Shown: one piece after another, positions 31,693 through 55,560 of the stretch
Numbering within the stretch: position 1 is the stretch's first letter
How the letters are laid out: the number at the start of each line of letters is the position of its first letter
Translations under genes and position numbers: made by a program
Assembly (NCBI GenBank): GCA_023381255.1
Contig: JAMCTX010000001.1
Coordinates: forward strand, 1-64,000
Origin: Nitrososphaerota archaeon
GTDB lineage: Archaea; Thermoproteota; Nitrososphaeria; Conexivisphaerales; UBA164
DNA: 64,000 bases
Reading direction: 5' to 3'
Notes under the pieces: model-generated
Database searches by the model: none
What the model was told of the DNA's origin: nothing
Seen by the model: the letters and a program-made list of their open reading frames with translations, nothing else

Positions 31693-33075
31693 TCAGGTTT
31701 GCGCTGAAGGGGTTGCTCCTTTATATAATGAAACCTTTTTGGCTAATGAGCTCACGTAATCATATGTTTCAGGATGAATGTGCATAAAATGAGCATAGGA
31801 GTTGTTGACTGCAAATCCATCAAGGCCATTTATGCCCGTGCCCCTTTCATATTTTATCGCAAAATCGTATCTTGACCTTAAGACCAGTTTTGAATAGTGG
31901 AATTCATGGCCAGCCAGGGTTGTTCCCCCGGGTGCAAATGGCGTGTCCCTTAGGGTTACAGCCCTGACATAACCGTGGCCCACAGGCCTTTCCAGCATTA
32001 CGCTTACCGCATCGATCGCGCCAACCATTTTGTATTCGTTGCCTTTATAAACGATCGAATCTGACAGGTACATCAGCCCGCCGCATTCTGCATACAGGTG
32101 CCCTCCGTTTTCTATGAATGTTTTTATGTATGACCTGAACGGCTTATTTCTTTCAAGTTCTTCGGCATAAACTTCTGGAAAACCCCCGCCAATCAGAATC
32201 AGGTCAACGTTTGCGCCCTGGTCCTTTTCCGGGTCAATGAACTCAACCCTCCCGACTTTTGATGCGGTTTCAATTGTCTCAGGATAATAGAATGTAAATG
32301 CCCTTCCTGACACTATCCCTATCGTGGTTTCAGATTTTTCATAAGCGGGTTCCACTGCCGGGCTTGCGCTCAGTGGCATGGCGTTTTCCCTTGCCACCTT
32401 CATGATCTTCTCAGCATCTATGTTGCCTGACATGCCGTCAAATGCCCCAGAAATCGTTCCTGACTCCTTTTCCCTTGCATGAACAAGCCCAAGGTGCCTG
32501 TAGCTCATTGTCTTTTCTATCGCGCTGCTTTGGCTTATGAAACCCATCAGTTCAATCCCTTCATTGCTTATTATTTTTGACATTTTGTCAACCTGCTGAG
32601 GCACTACGTTTGTAAGAATCGCGCCGGCCAGCCTGACATCTTTGTCAAATGCACTTAACCCACGCAGAATTGCCCCGGCTGTCCTGTTAATCCTTTCGCC
32701 GTTAATCACAATTATGACCGGCGATTTTAGGATCTTTGCAATCTGCGCCGTGCTGCCCTCCTCTGTTATGCCATCCGGGCTGTCAAAGAGTCCTGCCACA
32801 CCTTCGATTATGGCTATCCCCTTTCCCCTTGAAAATTTGTTAAATCTTTCAACCACCCTGTCTTTCATGAGCACGTGATCAAGGTTCCTGCTCGGCGTCC
32901 CTGTCAATGCCTCATGGTAGCTTGGATCTATAAAATCCGGGCCCACCTTGAACATGGAAACACTTATCCCCCTTTTGATCAGCGCGGAAGCTATTGCCAG
33001 GGTGGCCACGGTTTTACCGTTCTTTCCCTTGTATGATGATATTATAAGCCTTGGAACGCTGTTTGGTTCCTGCAA
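31693..33075 (-). CDS. dsrN: CbiA/CobB-type amidase, DsrN
   Basis: 460 residues. The N-terminal ATPase domain (SSYKGKNGKTVATLAIASAL) and C-terminal glutaminase-type domain (LYAECGGLMYLSD, with the nucleophile Cys, and HEFHYSKL) define cobyrinate a,c-diamide synthase. Downstream of dsrC in dsr clusters this protein, DsrN, is thought to amidate siroheme to the form used by dissimilatory sulfite reductase. The location 10 nt from dsrC supports that over a cobalamin role. Also contains FKVGPDFIDPSYH, the substrate-binding motif. Confidence 0.85.
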   Translation of the reverse strand: MQEPNSVPRLIISSYKGKNGKTVATLAIASALIKRGISVSMFKVGPDFIDPSYHEALTGTPSRNLDHVLMKDRVVERFNKFSRGKGIAIIEGVAGLFDSPDGITEEGSTAQIAKILKSPVIIVINGERINRTAGAILRGLSAFDKDVRLAGAILTNVVPQQVDKMSKIISNEGIELMGFISQSSAIEKTMSYRHLGLVHAREKESGTISGAFDGMSGNIDAEKIMKVARENAMPLSASPAVEPAYEKSETTIGIVSGRAFTFYYPETIETASKVGRVEFIDPEKDQGANVDLILIGGGFPEVYAEELERNKPFRSYIKTFIENGGHLYAECGGLMYLSDSIVYKGNEYKMVGAIDAVSVMLERPVGHGYVRAVTLRDTPFAPGGTTLAGHEFHYSKLVLRSRYDFAIKYERGTGINGLDGFAVNNSYAHFMHIHPETYDYVSSLAKKVSLYKGATPSAQT

Positions 33076-33085
33076 TTCTTAACAA

Positions 33086-33421
33086 TCAGACGCATCCTGT
33101 GGGCTTTGGAGCTCCTGCTACTTTGCAGGCCCCGTGTGCTGGCCCGTCCTGAAACAGCTCATATATGCTTTCAAGCGTTTCACCGCTTTCCTTAATCATC
33201 ATCTTTATGGGCGGGCAAACCCCGTAGGTCTCCCAGTACTGCCTCAGATATTTGACCAGTTTCCAGTGCCTTTCCGTCATTTGCTTTACACCCTCAATGT
33301 TTACGGCCATCCATTCGGCTACCTTGTCGTCCCAGACCTCAGGGTTCTGAAGAAAGCCATCTTCGTCCAGAATTACCTTTTTTCCTTCAACATCATATTC
33401 CCCAGGATATGATATAGTCAT
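33086..33421 (-). CDS. dsrC: DsrC sulfur-carrier protein
   Basis: 111 residues of the DsrC/TusE family (DEDGFLQNPEVWDDKVAEW, YWETYGVCPPIKMM). Both functional cysteines are present: Cys99 and Cys110, separated by ten residues, with Cys110 next to last. That C-x10-C-x arm separates true DsrC, which carries the DsrAB-derived trisulfide, from TusE or RspA-like proteins. Sits 70 nt downstream of dsrB and may have its own promoter in the AT-rich spacer. Confidence 0.95.
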   Translation of the reverse strand: MTISYPGEYDVEGKKVILDEDGFLQNPEVWDDKVAEWMAVNIEGVKQMTERHWKLVKYLRQYWETYGVCPPIKMMIKESGETLESIYELFQDGPAHGACKVAGAPKPTGCV

Positions 33422-33491: not shown

Positions 33492-34619
33492 TTAGATGTA
33501 CTTGATGAACTGCCTAACCCCGAAGTTCCAGTTTATTTCGGTGCAGGAATTGTGCCTCCCCTTGGGAACCCCCACCTGGTTCATAAAGTCGTCAAGGCCG
33601 ATCCTGTCCAGCATGTCTCCTATCCTTTCACCCGGTTTTGCGTTCTTTCTCCAAACATCAACTATTTTCCTCACCGCGGCAACTATTTCCCTGTATTCGG
33701 GCGGGTTGACTGGAATCCATGGTATTATCCTGTAGCCCAGCCTGGGCCCCGAGCCGGTATTGCTTGTCTTGCCCCCCACGAATATGGCGACCCCGATCTT
33801 GGCCGGGTCCCAGTCGAAATAATCGCAGACGTTCTTGCACCTCCCGCAGGCAATGCATCTCTTTTCGTCAACCTCTATTCCCACGGAACCGTCGGGCTTT
33901 CCGTAAAGCTTTATTGCGTTGACCGGACATACAGCCTGAACGTCAGGCACGACTTTCTTCAGCGCCTCCGCCGATGTCGGCAGGCAGAACTTTATCCTTT
34001 CAGGGTCAGGCCTTGGAACCTGTCCCCAGTGCCCCACCACGACTATGTCACCGGCAAGGGTGCCTGCACAGACGTTTGTGCATCCTGAAACAAATATCAT
34101 TAGCTTGGAAGGCAGCTTTTCCTTCCCGGTAAAGTACGGCATGAAGTTATCGTCCAGTTCCTTTGTTATGGAAGGCGCGTCAACTGCAAACGTCGAACAC
34201 GTCAGATAGGCTGTGCATGACGTTATGTGCCATAAGGAGTTTCCCCATCCGCCCGCAGGAAAACCGTATTTCCCCATTTCCTCAACTATCTTCTGCGCGC
34301 TTTCAAGTGAACCTGCGATGAACTCCACGTTCATCCCTCTTGTGGCCCTCACCACCTTTAAGCCGTATGAGTCTGCGACTTCAATTATCTTCCTTATGCT
34401 TTCTGTGCTTAGCCTTGAATTTGGGGGCAGCCCTATCTTTATGGTGAAAACCTTTTCCCCCGATTCGGCCGTGTGCTCTATGATCCCGTTGTCATAAAAC
34501 TTCCTGTCCACCCATTTGCCATAATTCCTCTTGATTATATCGGGCAGCTGGCTTGCGTAGGGCATCGGAAGCCTCTTGTTAACCCTGTCTATCGGGTCAG
34601 GGTTGAAGCTCAGTGACAT
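33492..34619 (-). CDS. dsrB: dissimilatory sulfite reductase, beta subunit
   Basis: 375 residues. Siroheme/[4Fe-4S] ligands are seen as SCTAYLTCST (C-x5-C) and VSGCTNVCAG (C-x3-C). A ferredoxin domain is inserted with VCPVNAI and RCIACGRCKNVC, a complete four-Cys set. GPRLGYRIIPWIP is the conserved C-terminal stretch. With DsrA it reduces sulfite, passing sulfur to DsrC. Follows dsrA with a 2-nt gap, a single transcription unit. Confidence 0.95.
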   Translation of the reverse strand: MSLSFNPDPIDRVNKRLPMPYASQLPDIIKRNYGKWVDRKFYDNGIIEHTAESGEKVFTIKIGLPPNSRLSTESIRKIIEVADSYGLKVVRATRGMNVEFIAGSLESAQKIVEEMGKYGFPAGGWGNSLWHITSCTAYLTCSTFAVDAPSITKELDDNFMPYFTGKEKLPSKLMIFVSGCTNVCAGTLAGDIVVVGHWGQVPRPDPERIKFCLPTSAEALKKVVPDVQAVCPVNAIKLYGKPDGSVGIEVDEKRCIACGRCKNVCDYFDWDPAKIGVAIFVGGKTSNTGSGPRLGYRIIPWIPVNPPEYREIVAAVRKIVDVWRKNAKPGERIGDMLDRIGLDDFMNQVGVPKGRHNSCTEINWNFGVRQFIKYI

Positions 34620-34621
34620 GG

Positions 34622-35863
34622 TTATATCCCACCCCCGTCATGGTAGTACTCCCCAGCCAGTTCTTTTGACCACTCTGTATATTCCTGCCTTTCGTCTTCG
34701 GAAAGCACTACGCCCGTGGTGAACCTCAGATGAGATGACGGGGTTGCCTTGGGCTTGTCTGGCAGGGTTTCCTGCGCTATATCGCTTATTATCCTGTACC
34801 CCTTTCTCAGGATGAGGTCGGCTAGCCTGTGCCTCCTGGGGGCGTTTTCTACATATGTATCGATTGTTTTAAGCACAAACGGCACGGCCTCCTGATAATT
34901 GTCAAGGAGTGCAACCCCCCAGCTCAGCCTGGGGCCATAATGCGCCTGGGCATGAGAACCGACAAGAAGCGCTATCTTCCTGTCCTTTCCCGGCTTTATG
35001 GCTGGAAACGCCTTCTTGATGCAGTTCATGGCCTTCAGGCACTTGCCGCCATCGATCTTGACCTCCCTCTTTTCATTGTCCCAGCTTATCGCCCCTGACG
35101 GGCACGAATTGACCAGCTCGTTTGCATTTACCTTTCCACTCTCTATCATGACCCTGAGCACCGCCTGGTCAACGTCTGGCGCTCCAACCCACGTGCCTAT
35201 AAACGTGAAATCAGACCTGGCGTTTGCAGTGGCGCAGTCCAGCGGGCATCCGCTGAACTTGAACTTTAACTTATAGGGGAACATCTGGGTGTTCAGGTAC
35301 TTGTATATTTGAGGATGGCTCCTGAAAAAGTCCATTGCCTGCATTGTATCATAAAGGGCGTATTCGCACAGCGCCTGCCCTGGACAGGCGTACAGCTCCC
35401 TGAAAGTGTCCCCCGACCCGCCCACGTCAGAACCCATTATTGCCCTTATGGCGTCAATTGCGCTGTCTGCCTTTTCGCTCTGTATGTTTATCACGATGGA
35501 ACCGGTATTTCCAGCGAATTCAACAAGGCCTATGCCATAATTGTCGGCAACCTCCACGAGCTTCTTCAGGTATGAAGTTGAAAGGAACCTTCCTGCTGGG
35601 GCATAGGTTCGGAAATGCGTTTCGGAAACCTTGCCATCACGGGACCTCCTCGCGAGAATTCCGCTGAAAACGTACTTTACCCTAAATGACCCGCTGTACC
35701 ACGGGGAATACTTGTGCGACACCCCCCATGCATAGTACTCTACCGGATATTTTGTCTTCTTGAGCTCAGTTACATGGCTTGGCCACGGACCCTTCTCAAG
35801 GCTGCCAAGCATCTTCATGTCTTCGTCAGTTACATTTTGCTCCATCTTTTCTGCAGAACTCAT
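34622..35863 (-). CDS. dsrA: dissimilatory sulfite reductase, alpha subunit
   Basis: 413 residues from ATG at 35863 (MSSAEKMEQNV), chosen because a TATA-like TTTTTATATC on the minus strand (about 35884-35893) falls inside the longer 424-residue version. Cofactor Cys sets are ACPGQALCEY (C-x5-C) and SGCPLDCATA (C-x3-C). The ferredoxin insert has NSCPSGAI, then C-L-K-A-M-N-C instead of the usual C-x2-C-x2-C: the central Cys is Ala, encoded GCC at 35030-35032. Four ligands are normal, so cluster binding in this domain may be altered. Everything else looks functional. Confidence 0.94.
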   Translation of the reverse strand: MSSAEKMEQNVTDEDMKMLGSLEKGPWPSHVTELKKTKYPVEYYAWGVSHKYSPWYSGSFRVKYVFSGILARRSRDGKVSETHFRTYAPAGRFLSTSYLKKLVEVADNYGIGLVEFAGNTGSIVINIQSEKADSAIDAIRAIMGSDVGGSGDTFRELYACPGQALCEYALYDTMQAMDFFRSHPQIYKYLNTQMFPYKLKFKFSGCPLDCATANARSDFTFIGTWVGAPDVDQAVLRVMIESGKVNANELVNSCPSGAISWDNEKREVKIDGGKCLKAMNCIKKAFPAIKPGKDRKIALLVGSHAQAHYGPRLSWGVALLDNYQEAVPFVLKTIDTYVENAPRRHRLADLILRKGYRIISDIAQETLPDKPKATPSSHLRFTTGVVLSEDERQEYTEWSKELAGEYYHDGGGI

Positions 35864-36030
35864 ATTTAAAAAACCGATATTTGATATAAAAAACATTATT
35901 CCACAGAAATGGTGAATTAATTGATGGTGTTTTTAACCCCAATCTGCATCAGGCAAACAGCATATACAGCTGCCTTTAAATTCAGGGATTATTGCATGGA
36001 AAGTGAAGAACAATACTTTAAAGGGTTTTT
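35864..36030. promoter_or_regulatory. divergent dsrAB / dsrMK promoter region
   Basis: AT-rich region between divergent dsrA and dsrM. It holds the dsrA TATA-like site near 35884-35893 and a loose inverted repeat AGGCA-15 nt-TGCCT at about 35951-35975. Joint control of the reductase and its membrane partner is likely from layout; no regulator binding site is proven. Confidence 0.4.
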
Positions 36031-36987
36031 ATGCCAAAAAAAGGCATGATACCAATACAGAATACGCTTGCCTACTTCTCTTATTTCTCATTTGCATTCT
36101 TCATAATTATGCTTGTATTTAACATGAAAAAATATGCATGGACCCCAGTGCATCTCAGGTGGGAGCTTTACCCCGTTCCCGGGGAAGAGGAGCATGAACA
36201 TGGGGGTTCATTTCTGGAAAGGGTTGACTGGTGGAAGGGTAGCATAAAGATGAACATGATGTCGGAATTAAATGAGCTTTTCCAGGAAATGCTGTTTATA
36301 AAGAGGCTTTACAAAAGCAAGAGGAGGTTCTGGGTGCTGAGCTTTCTCTTTCATGGCGGAATATACCTGATACTTGGCTGGTTTGTGTTTGTTTTTATAG
36401 GCGGGTTGGAGTTGCTCCTGCGCGTTCCCGCAACAAGCCTGCTATACATTGCCGTGTTTTATATAACAGTGACCTTCGGTTATCTGGGGATATCCGCGGC
36501 AACAATTGGCGGAATTGGGCTCGCGGTAAAAAGGTACTACGACGGCAAACTCAGGGACCTTTCTTCACCCGTTGACTACTTTAACCTGATATTTGCGCTG
36601 GCCGTGATGGTGAGTGGCATTTTTGCCCTGGCGTATGACCCACTTTTTGACACGGCAAGGGCTTTTATGGCATATCTGCTAAGCGGAGCCGGTTTCATAT
36701 TTCCATTTGGCTATTCCATTGCAATTTACCCTGCCACAGCGCTGCAGCTGGTTTTGCTGTGCTGCTTTTTAATTTACGTCCCATTTTCAAGGCTGACACA
36801 CTTTCTCGGAAAGTACTTTACATACCATAAGGTACTGTGGAACTCGCAGCCTTCAATGCAGCTTGGGAAGTTTAACGACAACTATGACCTGGAAGAAAAC
36901 ATGAACCTGACGATTCCCTGGTCGGCACCGCACATACCCACCGGGAAAAAATGGAAGGATGTAAAAGAAAATGAAAGATCAAATTAA
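36031..36987 (+). CDS. dsrM: DsrM-like membrane cytochrome b subunit
   Basis: 318 residues with one N-terminal TM helix, a polar loop of about 60 residues, and a nitrate-reductase-gamma-type five-helix core with His ligands for heme b (FHGGIYLILGW, then YHKVLW). Such subunits oxidise menaquinol and pass electrons to the DsrK Fe-S protein for DsrC-trisulfide reduction. It overlaps the start of dsrK by 17 nt. DsrJ, DsrO and DsrP genes are not beside it, as in the simpler DsrMK type. Confidence 0.82.
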   Translation: MPKKGMIPIQNTLAYFSYFSFAFFIIMLVFNMKKYAWTPVHLRWELYPVPGEEEHEHGGSFLERVDWWKGSIKMNMMSELNELFQEMLFIKRLYKSKRRFWVLSFLFHGGIYLILGWFVFVFIGGLELLLRVPATSLLYIAVFYITVTFGYLGISAATIGGIGLAVKRYYDGKLRDLSSPVDYFNLIFALAVMVSGIFALAYDPLFDTARAFMAYLLSGAGFIFPFGYSIAIYPATALQLVLLCCFLIYVPFSRLTHFLGKYFTYHKVLWNSQPSMQLGKFNDNYDLEENMNLTIPWSAPHIPTGKKWKDVKENERSN

Positions 36988-37319
36988 GATAAAGGATTTT
37001 TCAAAAGAATCAATGGCGCCCCTGGTAAAATTGGACCTGAAGGACCTTATGAAACTGGAACTGCTTGATGACGAGCCGGCCCTTAAGGAACCGCCACAGT
37101 TCTGGACTGAAAAGTACAATTTCTCGCTTGACGGGCACGCTGCTGTGGGGATACCTGTGCCTGCCAGCGACCAGGAAAAGGAGGAGCTTGTTAAAAGGTT
37201 CCTGAAGGGGCTTGAAAAGGAACTCACAAAGGAGGGAAACTGGACATTCCTCCAGCAGGTTTTGCTCAGCCTTGATTACTGTGCAAAGTGTGGGGCGTGC
37301 GAGGAAGCCTGCCCGATAT

Positions 37320-37334
37320 ACCTGGCAAGCGGGA
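37320..37334. repeat. left 15-bp target duplication of IS481-type element
   Basis: ACCTGGCAAGCGGGA, identical to 38353-38367. The coding frame of dsrK passes through it (LASG). Confidence 0.93.
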
Positions 37335-38352
37335 TGTGGTATCCTGTAATTATTAACGCTTTGTTTCATGTTTTGATCTGTCATTATTTGTCACCAGATC
37401 GTTTTAGCATTGGCAAGTCCTTCCTCCTCCTGTCGAGCCTGCTGTAGAATGCCTCCGCAGGCTTCTCAACATGCTCAAAGTCAAGCGAAAGGTGTGGCTT
37501 GTCATAGTTGTACCAGTGCATCAATTCATCAATGCTATCGAACAGGCGTATCTTCTGCTGGAACGTGCCGTAGAACCTTTCAACCTTGCCGTTTGTCTGC
37601 GGATGATGAACCCTGCCGACTATGTGCCTGATCCCCAGTTCCTCAAGGTGCACCTGAAAGGCGCTCTTACCCTCAGATTTTCTGTCACCGAAGTTTGAAT
37701 AGAACTGTGAGCCATGATCAGTGAGAAGCTCCCTTGGCTTGCCGTACTTTGATATGCATTCATCTAGCAGCTTTATCGCGTTTTCTGCTGTTGCATTGTC
37801 ATAAACGCCATAGCCAACCACAAACCTTGATGAATCGTCAAGGTAAACAATCAAATACTTTCCCCTCCACCTAGGATCGGCTATTTCGTACCAGTCCGTG
37901 TGCCACAGTGACATGCTGTGCCTCCTTTCATACTTGACGTACTTCCTCTTGGACCTCTTGTTTGGCTCTGCTGTAGACAGCCTGTTCTTCATTAACACTT
38001 TATGTATGGCATTGTGGGAAAAATTAAACCCTTCGCTCTTCAGCACCCTTTCCAGGTAAACTGCACCACACTTATGTTTCATATACGCATTGATTATTAC
38101 CTGCTCATCCTCGCTTGACAGCTGTTTCCTTGGCGGCCTGCCGGCTTTGCCTAATGTAGGAATGACGCCTGTATGGATGTACTGGCTCCACAACTGCCTT
38201 ATTCTTGATGTGGAAACATGTTGAATAGTTGCAATGTCTTTCGTGCTCAATTTGTTATCTTTTTTCATGTTAATTATCCACTTGATCTTGTCGTCTGTTA
38301 ATGTCAACCTGTTATGTGAGTCATTAAGTGTTAATAATTGTGGGATACGACA
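37335..38352. mobile_element. IS481-family insertion sequence, 1018 bp
   Basis: The ends form an imperfect inverted repeat of about 27 nt. The left end starts TGTGGTATCC and the inverted right end TGTCGTATCC, both followed by AATTATTAAC after three variable bases. Termini beginning TGT, a length near 1 kb and a 15-bp direct target repeat all fit IS481. One transposase gene lies on the minus strand. The perfect target duplication and intact transposase indicate a recent insertion. Confidence 0.93.
37384..38307 (-). CDS. IS481-family transposase
   Basis: About 307 residues from TTG at 38307 (LTLTDDKIKWIINM). The N-terminal third holds helix-turn-helix segments (STKDIATIQHVSTSRIRQLW and a second basic region). 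The rve-type catalytic core has Asp in LWHTDWYEI, Asp in LLTDHGSQF, and Glu in HPQTNGKVERFYGTF, the DDE triad. The open frame continues to 38361 beyond the IS end, in the target DNA, so that longer start is not native. It looks intact, so the element may still move. Confidence 0.9.
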   Translation of the reverse strand: MTLTDDKIKWIINMKKDNKLSTKDIATIQHVSTSRIRQLWSQYIHTGVIPTLGKAGRPPRKQLSSEDEQVIINAYMKHKCGAVYLERVLKSEGFNFSHNAIHKVLMKNRLSTAEPNKRSKRKYVKYERRHSMSLWHTDWYEIADPRWRGKYLIVYLDDSSRFVVGYGVYDNATAENAIKLLDECISKYGKPRELLTDHGSQFYSNFGDRKSEGKSAFQVHLEELGIRHIVGRVHHPQTNGKVERFYGTFQQKIRLFDSIDELMHWYNYDKPHLSLDFEHVEKPAEAFYSRLDRRRKDLPMLKRSGDK

Positions 38353-38367
38353 ACCTGGCAAGCGGGA
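38353..38367. repeat. right 15-bp target duplication of IS481-type element
   Basis: ACCTGGCAAGCGGGA, matching 37320-37334; dsrK resumes in frame directly after it at 38368. Confidence 0.93.
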
Positions 38368-39599
38368 AGAAAAACATATACAGTCCTCTATTCAGGTCAG
38401 AGCTTCTAAGGAGGCTTTACAGAAAGCATTTTACCACGGCGGGAAAACATTTCGGGAGGGTCGTTTACGGTGATATAGACGAGACATGGCAGCTTATAAC
38501 AAGGCTCATAGAGCTTTCTTACAGGTGCAATATATGCAGAAGGTGCGCGCAGGCGTGCCCCATAGGCATTGACAACGGCCTTATAGCGCATGAAATAAGG
38601 AAAATAGCAAGCCAGGAGCTGGGGATAGCAGCGAAGGAGCTTCATGAGAAGGGGACGGTGCTCCAGCTGAATGTGGGGTCATCAACGGGCCTGAACCCCG
38701 AGGGTTTCAAGAGAGTGGTTAAGATGATGGAGGAGGACATACAGGAAAAGGCCGGGCTCAAAATCAAAATACCGGTTGACGTAAAGGGGGCTGACATCCT
38801 GCTGATACACAATGCCGGTGAATACATTTCCTGGATTGAGAACCCGGAGGCTTACGCGATAATATTCGAAAAGGCCGGGCTCAGCTGGACGCTTAGCAGC
38901 GAGCCCGTTGGCTACGACTCAGTTAACTATGGCGTGTGGTATGATGACGTGCAGCTTGCGAGGATTGCCCTGAGGCATGTTGAAATAGCTCACAGGCTCG
39001 GCGTAAAAAAGATAGTCGTGGGAGAGTGCGGTCACGCTACAAAGGCCCTGGTTGTCACAGCCGAAAGGCTTCTTACAAAGGACAACTACATCCCGAGAGA
39101 GAGCGTGCTGCCCCTGCTTTCTGAAGTCGTTGAAAAATTCGATCTTGACCCGGAAAGGAACAGGTTCCCGGTAACGCTGCACGATCCGTGCAACACCGTC
39201 AGGCTTGCAGGCATAGTGGAACCGCAGCGCAGGGTTCTGAAGAAGGTGGCGCCCCTTTTCAGGGAAATGGAGCCCCACGGCGTATGCAACTACTGCTGCG
39301 GAGGCGGATCGGGGTTCGCCATAATGCATTCATACAATTTTGACCAGTGGAAAAACAAGGTCGCGGCCAGGATGAAGGTAAACCAGATACTTGAAGCTTT
39401 CAGGAATGAAATCAACCCTCAGGCCTACAAATACGTGTGCGCTCCGTGCAGCAACTGCAAGGGTGAAATAAGGGATTTCATAACGCATTACAAGCTCTGG
39501 GAAAAGTTCAGGATAAACTATGGCGGGCTTGCTGAACTGGTGGTCAACGCAATGCCTGAAATAAATGGCTACATAAACACGAATGAATTCCACTGAATA

Positions 39600-39950
39600 T
39601 TATATTGACAAAGTCAGTTTCGAGTTTGAAGCGAAATCAAAAAACGACGCCACGCCCCAGACTTCCACCCCATCGTTTATGAATTCTTTCACTCCAAACC
39701 CCTGAACAGCTGAAGAGCAGGCAACAAATTTCACGCCCAATTCAACCGCCCTTTTAAATTTCTGCTTGATGCTGTCGTCAAGCTTTTCAAATACCTGCTT
39801 TTTAACGAGCAGCACGCTGTCAAGCGCAAGGAACACCAGGACATCATAGTCCATGGCGCAGGCTGCCGAAACATAATCAAGAAGCATGCCCATGCGCGCC
39901 GTATCCGCCGGCGGAACAGTCGCCAATACCGCCAGCCTGTTGGCTGCCAT
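39600..39950 (-). CDS. DsrE-family protein
   Basis: 116 residues of the DsrE/DsrF-like fold: RLAVLATVPPADTA, a DYDVLVFLALDSVLLVKK strand-helix, and VKFVACSSAVQGFGV with a Cys in the place of the sulfur-carrying residue. It is a single protein, not a DsrEFH hexamer set. Probable sulfur-relay partner of DsrC or a stand-alone persulfide carrier. Convergent with dsrK, stops 3 nt apart. Confidence 0.75.
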   Translation of the reverse strand: MAANRLAVLATVPPADTARMGMLLDYVSAACAMDYDVLVFLALDSVLLVKKQVFEKLDDSIKQKFKRAVELGVKFVACSSAVQGFGVKEFINDGVEVWGVASFFDFASNSKLTLSI

Positions 39951-41518: not shown

Positions 41519-42946
41519 CTAAACGCTTCGGAGTTTAAGGGCCCTGTACACCAGGTCCATTAATCCGGAGTATTCCATTTCACTGTTGTACATTTTGTTA
41601 AGATATGGCATAACATGAGATAACTGCGCCTTGCATATGGAACACGGCCGTATCACCCATTTTGCATCATATCTTAGGGCTTCCTCATACCACAACCTTG
41701 AATACTGCGTTGCCAGAGGAACTACTTCGTCTGCAAGGTTTCCACCCTGGCCCCCGCAGCACCATGTGTAGCCCTTGCTGTGCTCCGGGTCAACCCAATT
41801 TTTAACTACATGCTCCATTATGAACCTGGGTTCCTCCGTGAGCCCGCCGCCGCGCGCATACTGGCAGGGGTCCTGGTATGTGTACTTTATGTCCCCGTTG
41901 GCCTGCGGGTCAAGTTCCACTTTTTTGTCCTTTATTGCCCTGGTAACAAGGTGATGTATGTGAACCAGTTCTATCCCATATTCCCTGAGCCTGGGCAGGG
42001 TGTAGCTCTTGTGCACCCTCCATCCGTGACCGCACTCGCCGGCCACGACCAGCTTTGCCCCCGTTTCCCTGGCTACCCGCACGTAATTCTCCGCCAGCCC
42101 TTTCATGTGATCGGGGTGAAGGAAGAGGCCGAAGTTTGCAGTCTCAACGGCCTGCGTGTTAAATGTAAAGTCCATGCCTATCAGGTTGAGAAAAAGCACG
42201 TATCCCTTGAGCGTTTCAATGTTCATGTAAAGGTCTGCTGAAGATGGCAGCATCAGCGTGCTGCTCTTTTCGTTTATCTTTATTTTTACGTCTATCCCCT
42301 TCTCAGACTTGATTTCGTCCTTTACAAATTTCATTATGGATTCCACAGCTGCCGGCTTCAGATTCATGTTATTGCCGGTTTTCCAGTGAGCATCGATTGT
42401 CATTGAAGTAAACCTAGATGCCATTCCGATTTCATAGAGCAGGGACCTGACGGTCCTTGTAACATCAGTTTGGTCAACACCCAGTGGGCAGACGTAAGCG
42501 CACCTCCTGCATATCAGGCAGAGCCAGTAATACGTGTAAATTTTCTTTATGTATTCCATGTCAATTTTTTTAACAGCACCGACGGCGCCGCCAAACAGCT
42601 TTCCGCTTGCCCTTTCGCCCTTGATTACGGACCTTATCAACTCGGCCCTTCCAAGCGGGGAATTGTTGATATCGCCGGATGTTATATACGTGGGGCAGGC
42701 GTAAAGGCATGCGCCGCAGTGAACGCATACGTCTATTGCCATTTTTACGTTCCTGTTTTTATTGTATTCCTCTTTAAGGCGCTCTGTAAAGTGCTTTACC
42801 TTGTCCTCGGGCTCCTTTAACTTTATGTAACTGTACAGGGGCGTTAAAAGCTTCTCGTCAGCCATGTTATGCGTGAAGTTCGAAACGTCCCCGTACTTAA
42901 ACGGCCTTTCCTTAAAAACGCGGTCAAAAGCCATATGATCATTCAC
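41519..42946 (-). CDS. HdrD/DsrK-type Fe-S oxidoreductase (second copy)
   Basis: 475 residues, intact. Two 4Fe-4S motifs (CVHCGACLYACPTY and CLICRRCAYVCPLG) are followed by two CCG-type domains (QDPCQYARGGG...YTWCCGGQGGN and RPCSICKAQL), the same architecture as the broken dsrK. It overlaps the following cytochrome b subunit gene by 8 nt, forming a DsrMK-like pair. It could replace the disrupted DsrK or serve another disulfide or sulfur intermediate. Sequence is clearly divergent from dsrK, so it is not a recent duplicate. Confidence 0.85.
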   Translation of the reverse strand: MNDHMAFDRVFKERPFKYGDVSNFTHNMADEKLLTPLYSYIKLKEPEDKVKHFTERLKEEYNKNRNVKMAIDVCVHCGACLYACPTYITSGDINNSPLGRAELIRSVIKGERASGKLFGGAVGAVKKIDMEYIKKIYTYYWLCLICRRCAYVCPLGVDQTDVTRTVRSLLYEIGMASRFTSMTIDAHWKTGNNMNLKPAAVESIMKFVKDEIKSEKGIDVKIKINEKSSTLMLPSSADLYMNIETLKGYVLFLNLIGMDFTFNTQAVETANFGLFLHPDHMKGLAENYVRVARETGAKLVVAGECGHGWRVHKSYTLPRLREYGIELVHIHHLVTRAIKDKKVELDPQANGDIKYTYQDPCQYARGGGLTEEPRFIMEHVVKNWVDPEHSKGYTWCCGGQGGNLADEVVPLATQYSRLWYEEALRYDAKWVIRPCSICKAQLSHVMPYLNKMYNSEMEYSGLMDLVYRALKLRSV

Positions 42947-43745
42947 CCTCCACAGGCACCGAAGGCCTGGAAATTGACGGCATGAACAGGTACGAAAACG
43001 GGTGCATCATCTTGCTCCACGGAAAGTAAACCAGAAAAATCATCACCAGTATGAAATGAGCCTGGAACAGCGTGTAACCCGCTATGAAAGAAACATTGGG
43101 ATGAAGCATCAATACTGACCAGACCCAGCCGGAAATCGAGCCTATATAGGCGGTATTGTGCGACGTTATTCCCAGGGTCTGCGCAAGTCCGGTCACTATT
43201 ATCAAAATAAGGAGCGAATCCGCAAAGTAATCATCCAGGAAGCTGAATTTCCTTATATTGAGGTTTATTATGTATTCGTTAACCAGCCTGAGCTTTACCT
43301 TTATGGTCCCCATCCTTCTCGTTATAAGTATGATCATGCCAGCCAGGGCCATAAGGCCACCCGTGCCGCCCACATAAAGGGCCAGCAGGTGGTGATAATA
43401 CGGGGTTATCCCAAACCATGCCTGAAGGTAAGTTTCGGGTATAAAAACGCCAAGATGCCCGAACAACGCTATCCATATCCCCCAGTGAAATAAGAAAGAG
43501 CCGTAAAAAAGTTCAGGGTCCTTATCCTTTCCCTGTATGGTGTAAAACAGGAATATTCTTTTCAGCACGTCCTTAGCTGTGCTGGACCAGGCATCTTCAT
43601 TGACCCCTGCATTTACGCTGTACATCCCCGTCAGTGCAGCAGCGCTGTTCCACAAATACAGGCGGTAAGCAATGCCCAGAACAAAAAGCCCTACCGCCGC
43701 ATAGGGGACGTATCCAAAAAGCAGGGTTAAAATCAGGGAATACAC
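42939..43745 (-). CDS. DsrM/NarI-like membrane cytochrome b (second copy)
   Basis: 268 residues with five to six TM helices and a nitrate reductase gamma fold. Candidate heme ligands include FHWGIWIALFGH and HHLLALYVGG, plus QAHFILVMIF in the last helix. It lacks the long N-terminal loop of dsrM at 36031. It would anchor the HdrD-like protein downstream and link it to the quinone pool. No own promoter evidence beyond AT-rich sequence upstream. Confidence 0.8.
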   Translation of the reverse strand: MYSLILTLLFGYVPYAAVGLFVLGIAYRLYLWNSAAALTGMYSVNAGVNEDAWSSTAKDVLKRIFLFYTIQGKDKDPELFYGSFLFHWGIWIALFGHLGVFIPETYLQAWFGITPYYHHLLALYVGGTGGLMALAGMIILITRRMGTIKVKLRLVNEYIINLNIRKFSFLDDYFADSLLILIIVTGLAQTLGITSHNTAYIGSISGWVWSVLMLHPNVSFIAGYTLFQAHFILVMIFLVYFPWSKMMHPFSYLFMPSISRPSVPVEGE

Positions 43746-51176: not shown

Positions 51177-52535
51177 TTATTGCGCCCCCGTCTCCGCCAG
51201 GTCCACTTCCAGCTCTCTTTCCTTCATGTCAAGGTACCTCTTGTTTACAAACGGATACCTGAATTCTTTCCACCACTTGATTATCACCTCGTAAACTTCC
51301 GGCCTGAATATGACGGGCGGTGGCCTTATTCCCTCGGCTATAAGCCCCCTCATAAAGCTGCCGCTGAACCTCTCCGCTTTATCCCTGTGGGCGCAGGTCT
51401 GGCTGTATGCTATTTCGCCGCAAACCGGGCAGTACCAGAATTCCTGCATGTTTACGGGCCTTATTTTCAGTCCCCTGTCCATGTCAAAAGGCGAGGCATT
51501 TAAGCCAAAGCTTGGGAGGCCGCTTTCCCAGAGGGCCTGGGTAGAGTACGGGTCATAATAATCCCCGGTTGCCGCGTGGTCCCTGCCGAACATGTGATGC
51601 GTGCAGCCCATGTTTTGCCTGATTATCCCATGCAGGAGCGACTCAAGGGGGCCGCCGTACCTCATATCCCACAGGGTCATGGAGACCAGGTGCCTGGCCG
51701 GGCTTATGTAACCGAATTTATCTACAGCTTCATGGCCCTCAAGTATGGCTTCATCAACAAAATCACCAAGCCGCTTTGAACCCACTATGGCATTTACAAG
51801 TATGCCGTTGCACGGTTCAGTGTCACCCATAAATGCGGCCTGTTTCATCAGGTGTTCGTGGCCCATGTGAGGCACGTTCCGTGTCTGATGAGCTATGACA
51901 GTCCTCCAGCCCCTTTTTGCGAATTCGGCCCTCGACTTTTCAGGCGGATACCAGAACCTTTCGTAAACCGCCTTAAATTTCGGTTCATTGATGATGTAGA
52001 CCCTGCCACCCAGCGCGGTTCCCGACATCTGGGCATACATGCTCCATCCTGGATGCTTGTGGTCAAAAGGCCTTTTTACGGCATCCGGGTTCATGTCAGG
52101 GGTTCCAAATGTCCTGTCTGCAATTTCCTTCGGGTCGAACTTCCAAACCTCGTCTATATCAATCACCGCAAATGGCTTTCCCTTTAATTTCAGCAGGACA
52201 CTGTCCCCTTCCCTGATTGCGAGTTCCCTGACCTTTTCCGGATTTACGTCAAATATTATCGGGAATGGGAAAACCCAGCCGTCAAGCAGCCTCCTTTCCT
52301 TTAATACTCTTTCCGTCTCATTTCTGGTCATAAATCTGTCCAGCGGGCTGAAAAATCCATATGCTATTGACATAATTTCCCTGTATGCATTCCTGATCAC
52401 GGTTCCCGTGCTCCTGTCGATCTCGGGTTCTATTTCCAGAGCCTGCCGCCCCGTTTCAATAATTGCGTTAGGCCTTATCCCGTTAACAAGCTTGCCTCCG
52501 TGTGGTTCCGGGGTATTTATTTTCAGGCTGTTCAT
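51177..52535 (-). CDS. sat: ATP sulfurylase (sulfate adenylyltransferase)
   Basis: 452 residues, stand-alone ATP sulfurylase of the archaeal/sulfate-reducer type. The nucleotide-binding motif is QTRNVPHMGHEHLM with the HxGH signature; GRDHAATGDYYDPY is the second conserved stretch; a zinc-site region CPVCGEIAYSQTCAHRDK lies toward the C-terminus. It makes APS and PPi from sulfate and ATP. No APS-kinase domain. It overlaps aprA by 4 nt. Confidence 0.95.
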   Translation of the reverse strand: MNSLKINTPEPHGGKLVNGIRPNAIIETGRQALEIEPEIDRSTGTVIRNAYREIMSIAYGFFSPLDRFMTRNETERVLKERRLLDGWVFPFPIIFDVNPEKVRELAIREGDSVLLKLKGKPFAVIDIDEVWKFDPKEIADRTFGTPDMNPDAVKRPFDHKHPGWSMYAQMSGTALGGRVYIINEPKFKAVYERFWYPPEKSRAEFAKRGWRTVIAHQTRNVPHMGHEHLMKQAAFMGDTEPCNGILVNAIVGSKRLGDFVDEAILEGHEAVDKFGYISPARHLVSMTLWDMRYGGPLESLLHGIIRQNMGCTHHMFGRDHAATGDYYDPYSTQALWESGLPSFGLNASPFDMDRGLKIRPVNMQEFWYCPVCGEIAYSQTCAHRDKAERFSGSFMRGLIAEGIRPPPVIFRPEVYEVIIKWWKEFRYPFVNKRYLDMKERELEVDLAETGAQ

Positions 52536-54388
52536 TTGCGCACCACCAGATCTATGACCGGCACGGAAAATACTTCCCAGCTTTGGGCCTTGCTGTCATA
52601 GCGCGAGTTGACAAATACCCTCCATCCATCATCGTCAAGAGCAGGGAAGTCGGACCTTGAATAATAACCGGGCCACCTGGTTTCCTTCCTGTACAGCATA
52701 TGCACCACTATTGCCTCAGCCGTCAGTATCCTGTGCCACAGCTCCCATGTCCTGAGCAGCTGGTGATAGTTTTCGGCAGCGGCATAATTAACGAAGTCTT
52801 CCTTTAGCATTTTTATCAGCTTTAGCGCATTGTTGAGCATCACGTCGCTGGTTGTATACCATGACCCCCATCCCGCAGCGTATTCATCCATCAACTTCTG
52901 CAGGCGCGCAAGCCCCTGGTCGTACCACATCATGTCTGGCGACACTTTCCCAGCAGTTATCTCATACTTGTTTTTGTTATAACGCTCTATTGGCTCATAT
53001 AAATTGAGCTTCATCCGCTCAATCGTGCTGTTGTCGATTTGAAGATGCTCGTCGCTGTGGTCCATAAGATATTTAACGGCAGATTTCGCAGCTATTCTCC
53101 CTTCAGTAAATGACCCGGAAGAGAATTTATGGGGCGATGCACCGCACGCGTCTCCAGCCACGAAAAGCCCGTCAACTGTTGACATCCTGTTGTAACCCCA
53201 GAAATAACTTTTGCTCCTGTCCCCGTTGCTCAAGCTGGAGCTTATGTCTTCGGGGCCGCTGGCCCACGCTCCGTTTTCAGTTGCGTGCGAGCCCATTGCA
53301 TAAGGCTCTGACGGCAATATTTCAGAAGGCTCCTTCATGGGATCCACATTCTGACCCGCCCAGACCAGCGCCTGGCTGATTGTCATGTCAAGGAAGTCTT
53401 CCCAGCCGAGCTCCTCATTTTCCCTGGTGAGAACCTTTTCCGTGTGCATGTAAATCGGTCCCCTGCCGGCCTTTAGCTCCATTAAGCTTGAAAGCACCCT
53501 GAGATTTGTGGGGGTTGGCACGACATCGGCATAACCCATCTTCCCGTTGAATAATTTCCTGATCTCTTCCTTGTGTAGCTCAAAGCTGTCTTGCCCAAGC
53601 GCGTTTGTCTGCTTTGCCTTTAGCAGCAACTGCCATGCGCCCACAGGACCGTACCCATCCTTGTACCTGGGAACGCTGAACCTTGCTTCCATCATTGTCA
53701 TGGTTGCCCCTGCCTCTATCAGCAGCCCATATGCGGACCCGCTTGCCCAGTGCGGATACCATGTCCTTCCTGCTCCTTCGCGGGAAGACCTGGGCCTGTA
53801 TATCTGGGAAGCGCCGCCGGCAGAAACTATCACCACTTTTGATTTAAATACGTAAAATGTTCCGTCCCTTACGTCAAACCCAACTGCACCAGCCATTTTA
53901 TTATTGGCATCCTTTATCAGGCGGGTGATCATAACCCTATTATAGATTTCAGACGCTGCCTTTTTTGCGGCCTCAGCAACAATTGCCTTATAGGATTCCC
54001 CGTGTATCATTATCTGCCATTTCCCTTCCCTCAGGTAATGGCCATTTTTATCCCTCATTATCGGCAGTCCCCATTCATCGAAAAGATGAACCGTTGAATC
54101 CACATGCCTTGCAACGTCGTAAACCAGGTCGTCTCTTATTATCCCCATCAGGTCATTCTTCACGTAGTTTACGAAGCCTTCGGGAGTATTTTCATCCCAT
54201 CGCATACCCATGTATGTGTTTATCGCCGACAGACCCATTGCAACCGCACCGCTTCTATCCACATTTGCCTTCTCTACAAGCACTATCCTGGAATTTCTTG
54301 ACCAGTACCTTGCCTCCCATGCCGCACCGCACCCAGCCATTCCTCCACCGACTATCAGGATATCGCAGTCAACTGTTTTGCTCTTCAA
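52532..54388 (-). CDS. aprA: adenylylsulfate reductase, alpha subunit
   Basis: 618 residues. FAD-binding GGGMAGCGAAWEARYW at the N-terminus, SAGGASQIYRPRSSREGAGRTWYPHW (long conserved AprA stretch, substrate region), GDACGASPHKFSSGSFTEGR near the flavin end, and a C-terminal helical domain with RWPGYYSRSDFP. Reduces APS to sulfite and AMP, or the reverse. Overlaps aprB by 4 nt and sat by 4 nt. Confidence 0.95.
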   Translation of the reverse strand: MKSKTVDCDILIVGGGMAGCGAAWEARYWSRNSRIVLVEKANVDRSGAVAMGLSAINTYMGMRWDENTPEGFVNYVKNDLMGIIRDDLVYDVARHVDSTVHLFDEWGLPIMRDKNGHYLREGKWQIMIHGESYKAIVAEAAKKAASEIYNRVMITRLIKDANNKMAGAVGFDVRDGTFYVFKSKVVIVSAGGASQIYRPRSSREGAGRTWYPHWASGSAYGLLIEAGATMTMMEARFSVPRYKDGYGPVGAWQLLLKAKQTNALGQDSFELHKEEIRKLFNGKMGYADVVPTPTNLRVLSSLMELKAGRGPIYMHTEKVLTRENEELGWEDFLDMTISQALVWAGQNVDPMKEPSEILPSEPYAMGSHATENGAWASGPEDISSSLSNGDRSKSYFWGYNRMSTVDGLFVAGDACGASPHKFSSGSFTEGRIAAKSAVKYLMDHSDEHLQIDNSTIERMKLNLYEPIERYNKNKYEITAGKVSPDMMWYDQGLARLQKLMDEYAAGWGSWYTTSDVMLNNALKLIKMLKEDFVNYAAAENYHQLLRTWELWHRILTAEAIVVHMLYRKETRWPGYYSRSDFPALDDDGWRVFVNSRYDSKAQSWEVFSVPVIDLVVRK

Positions 54389-54825
54389 TTTTTCTCACCT
54401 TTAATGCTGGGAACCGAATTGATGTACAGCTTTTCGGGCTCAAGCGAAAGTTCTTCCGTCTTGCCCATTTCTGCCTGCGGATACTCCGAGGGGGGCTTGA
54501 TTGACCCCCATTCTGTAGTCCTGATGGGGAACGAGAATTTTTTGCGCGTCCCATTCCTGTATGAAATGTTCCATTCTATGGTATTTTTTCTGTCATCCCT
54601 TACCACAGTTATCGATGCACCCATAGGCACAAAATCGGCATACCCCCTTACATCCACAGCCTGCCTTCCGCACACCTTAACGCAGTTTAAACACTCCCAG
54701 CATGCGTCAGGCTCAATGTTATAGGCTTTCCTGCTCTTCCTGTCAAAATGTATTATGTCGCTTGGGCAGATATCTACGCAGTCGCCGCACCCTGAGCATT
54801 TTGATGCATAAACAAATGTTGGCAT
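54385..54825 (-). CDS. aprB: adenylylsulfate reductase, beta subunit
   Basis: 146 residues with two [4Fe-4S] motifs: CSGCGDCVDICP (Cys10, 13, 16, 20) and CWECLNCVKVCGRQA. The remaining C-terminal part wraps around the alpha subunit in known structures. Electrons pass through the two clusters to FAD in AprA. The upstream membrane gene ends 1 nt before its start. Confidence 0.95.
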   Translation of the reverse strand: MPTFVYASKCSGCGDCVDICPSDIIHFDRKSRKAYNIEPDACWECLNCVKVCGRQAVDVRGYADFVPMGASITVVRDDRKNTIEWNISYRNGTRKKFSFPIRTTEWGSIKPPSEYPQAEMGKTEELSLEPEKLYINSVPSIKGEKN

Positions 54826-55560
54826 TTAGCCCTCAACCTCCTTATTTAAGGCAACTTTCTTGTCAAACCTGTCGTATGTGTTCCAGATTATCTGGTAGAG
54901 CGCATGCGAGAACTTCGTAAACGGCATCGTGGCAAACAGGGCAAATATAAAAGCCATGTGCACCCAGAAAGCGGCATCAACATACAAGGAGTACGCTTCC
55001 GCAAGCTCCAGCAGGAAGCCGGTTATAACGGTAAATGCCAGAAGGAGCAGGAACAGGTCTGCTGATGTAACAGCCTTCCAATCTTCTCCCCTGTACCTTG
55101 AAGGCCAGTATATTACCACGCCTGCCAGAATGATTATTCCGCCAATTAACCCAAGCCCGGTCTCGATTGCGCTTCCCGCAGGCCCAAGGTAGAAAGCCTT
55201 TGAAAACGTGTACGGGGTAATCCACCTGTCAAAGATAAACCCTATCAGCGTGGATATGAGCAGCAGCACAAATCCGTAAAATATGAGAAGGTGGGAAAGC
55301 CTCTTTACATGGGTCCTGTTTTCATAAAAGGCTTCAGTATGGCAGGCTGCCATAGGTTCCGAGGCAAACATGTCAAGGAAGATTGTCTCTATAAATGCCC
55401 TGGCCAGCAGGCTGCCGTTCCCCCCCTGGGCATTTGAATATCTTGTGAACCTTTTTGCTGCGCCCCGCTTTAATTCAAATATAAACCCGGCTGCGAGCAC
55501 TACAACCAGTATTATAGATCCATAGATAATTTCATAATGCGTTGCTGGCAACGAAATCAA
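54826..55560 (-). CDS. membrane cytochrome-b-like partner of AprBA (AprM/QmoC-like)
   Basis: 244 residues with about six TM helices and His residues in helices (VKRLSHLLIFYGFV, WVHMAFIFALFA, KFSHALYQ). The overall pattern matches the QmoC C-terminal/HdrE-NarI-like membrane domain. It lies directly before aprB-aprA-sat, in the place where sulfur oxidisers have AprM and sulfate reducers QmoABC. QmoA and QmoB are not in the window. It probably links AprBA to the quinone pool. Confidence 0.78.
   Translation of the reverse strand: MISLPATHYEIIYGSIILVVVLAAGFIFELKRGAAKRFTRYSNAQGGNGSLLARAFIETIFLDMFASEPMAACHTEAFYENRTHVKRLSHLLIFYGFVLLLISTLIGFIFDRWITPYTFSKAFYLGPAGSAIETGLGLIGGIIILAGVVIYWPSRYRGEDWKAVTSADLFLLLLAFTVITGFLLELAEAYSLYVDAAFWVHMAFIFALFATMPFTKFSHALYQIIWNTYDRFDKKVALNKEVEG

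Follow-up and report, generated by a model that had tools for sequence, protein, structure and literature searches.

An IS481-type insertion sequence (IS) interrupts K1, one of two dsrK-like genes that an archaeon of Conexivisphaerales type (Nitrososphaeria) carries in its sulfur-respiration island, and the gene content and phylogeny of the island suggest that the insertion probably hits a dispensable second DsrMK module (M1-K1) while sulfite reduction via the intact M2-K2 pair stays in place. The window, i.e., the whole stretch of DNA that was analysed, comprises 64,000 nucleotides (positions 1 to 64,000 of contig JAMCTX010000001.1), and coordinates refer to it unless another contig or locus is named. 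The presence of DsrAB in Nitrososphaeria (families UBA164 and UBA183) has already been reported (PMC10833072).

An IS481-type element splits K1 between its ferredoxin motifs

The element, its target site and the genes around it are as follows:

36031-36987, plus strand: M1, dsrM-like membrane partner of K1 (Nitrate_red_gam, 2.3e-07), with a 17-bp overlap with the K1 start
36971-37447, plus strand: K1 N-terminal part, a 158-aa open reading frame (ORF) ending in the IS, with K1's own coding up to 37334; first CxxCxxCxxxCP motif
37320-37334, plus strand: left copy of the 15-bp target duplication, ACCTGGCAAGCGGGA, same as 38353-38367
37335-38352, minus strand: 1018-bp insertion sequence of IS481 type; its ends start with TGT, its terminal repeats match at 23/30 positions and its transposase is on the minus strand
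37384-38307, minus strand: transposase, 307 aa from the first start within the element (TTG); Pfam rve 2e-18, NCBIfam IS481
38328-39596, plus strand: K1 C-terminal part, a 422-aa ORF from a GTG (38328) inside the IS; second 4Fe-4S motif and CCG domain
38353-38367, plus strand: right copy of the 15-bp target duplication, same as 37320-37334

The first-pass annotation had described a perfect 15-bp target duplication, matching terminal repeats and an intact transposase, and all three were reproduced. Specifically, the direct repeats flanking the element agree at 15 of 15 positions, with the match stopping at 15 bp in both directions (by chance, a given element would be abutted by an exact 15-bp repeat with a probability of about 1e-9), the terminal 30 bp form imperfect inverted repeats that start with TGT and match at 23 of 30 positions, and the transposase frame is intact, with an rve domain and the residues D156, D215 and E261 (numbered in a 325-aa ORF). 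The called start of that ORF (TTG at 38361) lies outside the element, the first start within it being the TTG at 38307. The best-matching family was NCBIfam IS481 (NF033577; 7.4e-57, 193 bits), and because this score is below the NCBIfam cut-off of 224 bits we call the element "IS481-type". While it differs from the IS481 family in that score, it shares with it a length of about 1 kb, TGT ends, a single DDE transposase with rve and a duplication within the family's range of 2-15 bp (mostly 6 bp, with a number near 15; ISFinder as cited in PMC10045372). A PDB sequence search with the transposase gave no match.

Most of the further IS481-like copies in this genome and its relatives share 65-84% identity with the element, and a scan for exact repeats at those loci found no duplication of this element's type. 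The IS itself is present in the bin in two or more copies, because contig C25 opens with the last 127 bp of it (C25:1-127, 100% identical) and thereafter consists of unrelated, AT-rich DNA; the length of 127 bp is likely to reflect the assembly k-mer overlap at a graph branch. The duplication partner of this second copy, GCAAAATTATTTATC, occurs in the bin solely at C25:128-142, so the left flank of the second copy is absent from the bin.

When the K1 flanks are joined with a single repeat, they give 1593 nt, i.e., 530 codons and a stop, with two CxxCxxCxxxCP motifs (4Fe-4S) and one CCG domain by Pfam and regular expression. Excision of the IS and one repeat had been claimed to restore a 530-codon frame with both cluster motifs, which it does; the "CCG domains" (plural) of the same claim came down to one. 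The N-terminal part aligns with codons 1-121 of the unbroken K1 in four relatives; codon 121 is the last one before the cut, which separates the two ferredoxin motifs from each other. In 2[4Fe-4S] folds each cluster draws ligands from both motifs, so neither fragment should bind the normal cluster pair, which points to a loss of function. The interrupted allele is the only K1 allele present in the genome (25 contigs, 85% complete), with no further copy.

K1 is unbroken in relatives and bears no sign of decay

Among 20 relatives examined, the carriers of DsrB were exactly G001, G003, G006 and G010, and all four have K1 unbroken in one frame (94% amino-acid identity in G001, 80% in G010); a continuous frame in 4/4 DsrB-positive relatives contradicts the idea that related genomes as a whole lack one. 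K1 evolves under strong purifying selection (dN/dS of 0.027 against G001), and since it is also kept in all DsrB-positive members of the family, it appears to have a real job in these relatives. The dS to G001 is 1.30 before the insertion site and 1.29 after it. Polarised by three outgroups, the amino-acid changes since the split from G001 number 10 on this K1 branch and 9 on the sister's. With changes this even, K1 seems free of decay, which argues that the insertion is recent; the intact element, the perfect duplication and the unbroken sister genes are in keeping with the recent date first proposed. As a separate observation, TnpB-like remnants follow K1 in G001 (locus L043, 2730-3807), in place of the usual dsrE and K2.

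K2 rather than K1 groups with canonical DsrK

M1-K1 directly adjoins dsrA, in an island that also contains a second dsrMK pair:

31693-33075, minus strand: dsrN-like cobyrinate amidotransferase (GATase_3 and CbiA domains)
33086-33421, minus strand: dsrC (PF04358, 2.8e-31), both C-terminal cysteines present in the sequence (ACKVAGAPKPTGCV)
33492-34619, minus strand: dsrB (TIGR02066, 7.9e-102)
34622-35896, minus strand: dsrA (TIGR02064, 8e-99)
39600-39950, minus strand: DsrE-like protein (PF02635, 2e-14)
41519-42946, minus strand: K2, intact dsrK, 475 aa (NF045796, 299 bits; IQ-TREE 100/99; in 33/33 DsrB-positive genomes)
42939-43745, minus strand: M2, membrane partner of K2, 268 aa (Nitrate_red_gam, 1.9e-28)
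51177-52535, minus strand: sat, ATP sulfurylase (PF01747, 1.9e-70)
52532-54388, minus strand: aprA-like flavoprotein (FAD_binding_2), next to aprB and sat, an arrangement shared with Vulcanisaeta
54385-54825, minus strand: aprB (PF12139, 6e-26)

The gene set of the sulfite/sulfate pathway is complete apart from K1, because dsrAB, dsrC, dsrN, sat, aprBA and M2-K2 are all full length. Two further loci were seen. A weak NarI-like membrane protein is encoded beside aprB (54826-55560), is kept in Vulcanisaeta islands and may stand in for Qmo as the electron donor to AprAB. Another aprA-like and sat pair lies elsewhere in the genome (contig C15, 24563-27500; aprA 63% identical).

Against the NCBIfam DsrK model NF045796, K1 scored 321 bits and K2 299 bits, both below the cut-off of 400; representatives of the canonical DsrK references used here scored 416-746 bits. 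In an IQ-TREE phylogeny (LG+C20, 56 sequences), a branch with support of 100/99 places K2 together with DsrK of the DsrMKJOP type on one side and K1, with TmcB/HmcF-like proteins, on the other, the order within the K2 side being poorly supported (62/12). K2 again groups with canonical DsrK in a FastTree phylogeny of 175 sequences. K1 has two 4Fe-4S motifs and CCG in the order also seen in the DsrK of DsrMKJOP but is set apart from it by its score and by the 100/99 branch, and it is K2, not K1, that appears to be the ortholog of canonical DsrK. Sequence searches of the PDB returned for K1 and K2 only one distant match each, a 1042-aa Fe-S reductase.

The K1 family is widespread, its genes lying next to dsrABNC in numerous bacterial and archaeal genomes; it co-occurs with canonical DsrK in many bacteria and in Archaeoglobaceae. 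Neukirchen et al. 2023 (PMC10504309) described a basal "dsrMK-only" DsrK clade that occurs in archaea and in Deltaproteobacteria with DsrMKJOP in addition. Given that K1, too, is found in archaea and bacteria having canonical DsrK, we infer that it is a member of this clade, matched by the clade's description alone.

M1-K1 is variably present in archaeal dsr islands

Across 398 genomes of the phylum, 33 were DsrB-positive, and a K2-type match (at least 38% identity) was found in every one of them. K1 at 55% identity or more occurred in 12 of the 33, a count that includes the broken K1 described here, and four had no more than a 39-41% relative; scoring in these searches was limited to the three or four best candidates of each genome, among which a K1 of at least 55% should rank. 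The remaining pattern, K2 without any K1, was seen in 17 of the 33; seven of these genomes comprise a single contig and have an AprA match. Presence of K1 was not associated with aprA among the DsrB-positive genomes (8/12 vs 15/21, Fisher P = 1). K2 was not found in the assembly of the nearest sister, G001 (85% complete), an absence that is uncertain because the assembly is in 210 contigs; as far as the assembly shows, G001 would rely on K1.

Two Vulcanisaeta-type islands, one with M1-K1 (G403) and one without it (G166), are collinear from end to end (77-81%) bar one stretch, in which the segment holding M1-K1 (L207, 7874-10488) is replaced by 269 bp (L205, 8903-9171). In islands of this type, M1-K1 is a clean presence/absence cassette of 2.6 kb, and collinear islands that lack it still have dsrAB, dsrC, apr and sat. 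Some genes are split into several frames, probably through errors of the draft sequences: aprA and sat in G403 (Vulcanisaeta JCM 14467; L207, 16174-18086), and in JCM 16159 (L056, 13425-14843) the same two genes as well as K2.

Discussion

The course of events that we favour begins with an IS481-type copy that would recently have transposed into one of this archaeon's two DsrK paralogs, K1, duplicating 15 bp of its target and splitting K1 between the ferredoxin motifs. The damage is likely to be confined to K1, because the insertion leaves the upstream M1 unaffected and the gene that follows K1 lies on the opposite strand. Electrons from the quinone pool would most likely continue to flow to the DsrC trisulfide via M2-K2, a canonical-type DsrMK whose service to DsrC is suggested by orthology and co-occurrence, and the potential for sulfite/sulfate reduction would be retained.

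The first-pass annotation had implied that the break in dsrK removes the electron input to DsrC, a view not borne out by the intact M2-K2 in the same island, the grouping of K2 with canonical DsrK and the occurrence of K2 in all 33 DsrB-positive genomes. A fuller version, in which the insertion abolishes the sole effective electron route to DsrC and the cell line has lost sulfite respiration, could draw on the wide distribution of the K1 family beside dsrABNC, on the retention of K1 by all DsrB-positive family members and on the position of M1-K1 next to dsrA. We consider it unlikely, given also the 17 DsrB-positive genomes in which K2 occurs without K1 (seven of which consist of one contig and have AprA) and the full-length dsrABC, dsrN, sat and apr. 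That K1 still works as two polypeptides, with the C-terminal part started from an in-frame GTG supplied by the IS, is harder still to credit: the 422-aa ORF is indeed open from 38328, and HdrB and HdrC, which are separate chains in methanogens, offer a precedent, but the cut lies between the ferredoxin motifs and not at the HdrC/HdrB border, both clusters are split, and there is no convincing ribosome site upstream of the GTG.

Two other readings concern the assembly and the population that it represents. An assembly chimera across the repeated IS would fit the occurrence of two or more IS copies in the bin and the stretch of exactly 127 bp from the element at the start of C25, a likely k-mer overlap; the perfect duplication, the exact restoration of the K1 frame and the equal dS to G001 on both sides make it extremely improbable. 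The insertion might instead vary within the population, K1 being intact in other cells, as the lack of decay on either side of the site and the young look of an element with another copy in the bin would allow. We regard this as possible but doubtful, since only the interrupted allele was assembled and assemblers usually keep the majority path; it is in any case compatible with the loss of a dispensable M1-K1.

As an IS insertion, the event is ordinary. Because the intact K2 is nearer to canonical DsrK and related archaea do without K1, what it points to is the ordinary loss of a spare module, not a crippled respiration; the broken gene should not be taken for "the" dsrK, nor the organism be called unable to respire sulfite. 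More tentatively, M1-K1 could be a dispensable cassette with a job of its own (another disulfide partner or an electron exit) that archaeal dsr islands gain and lose, with this genome catching a loss in progress while M2-K2 carries sulfite reduction. The interrupted gene amounts to a natural knock-out, and a comparison of genomes that have K2 only, both genes or a freshly broken K1 could reveal the role of the second pair.
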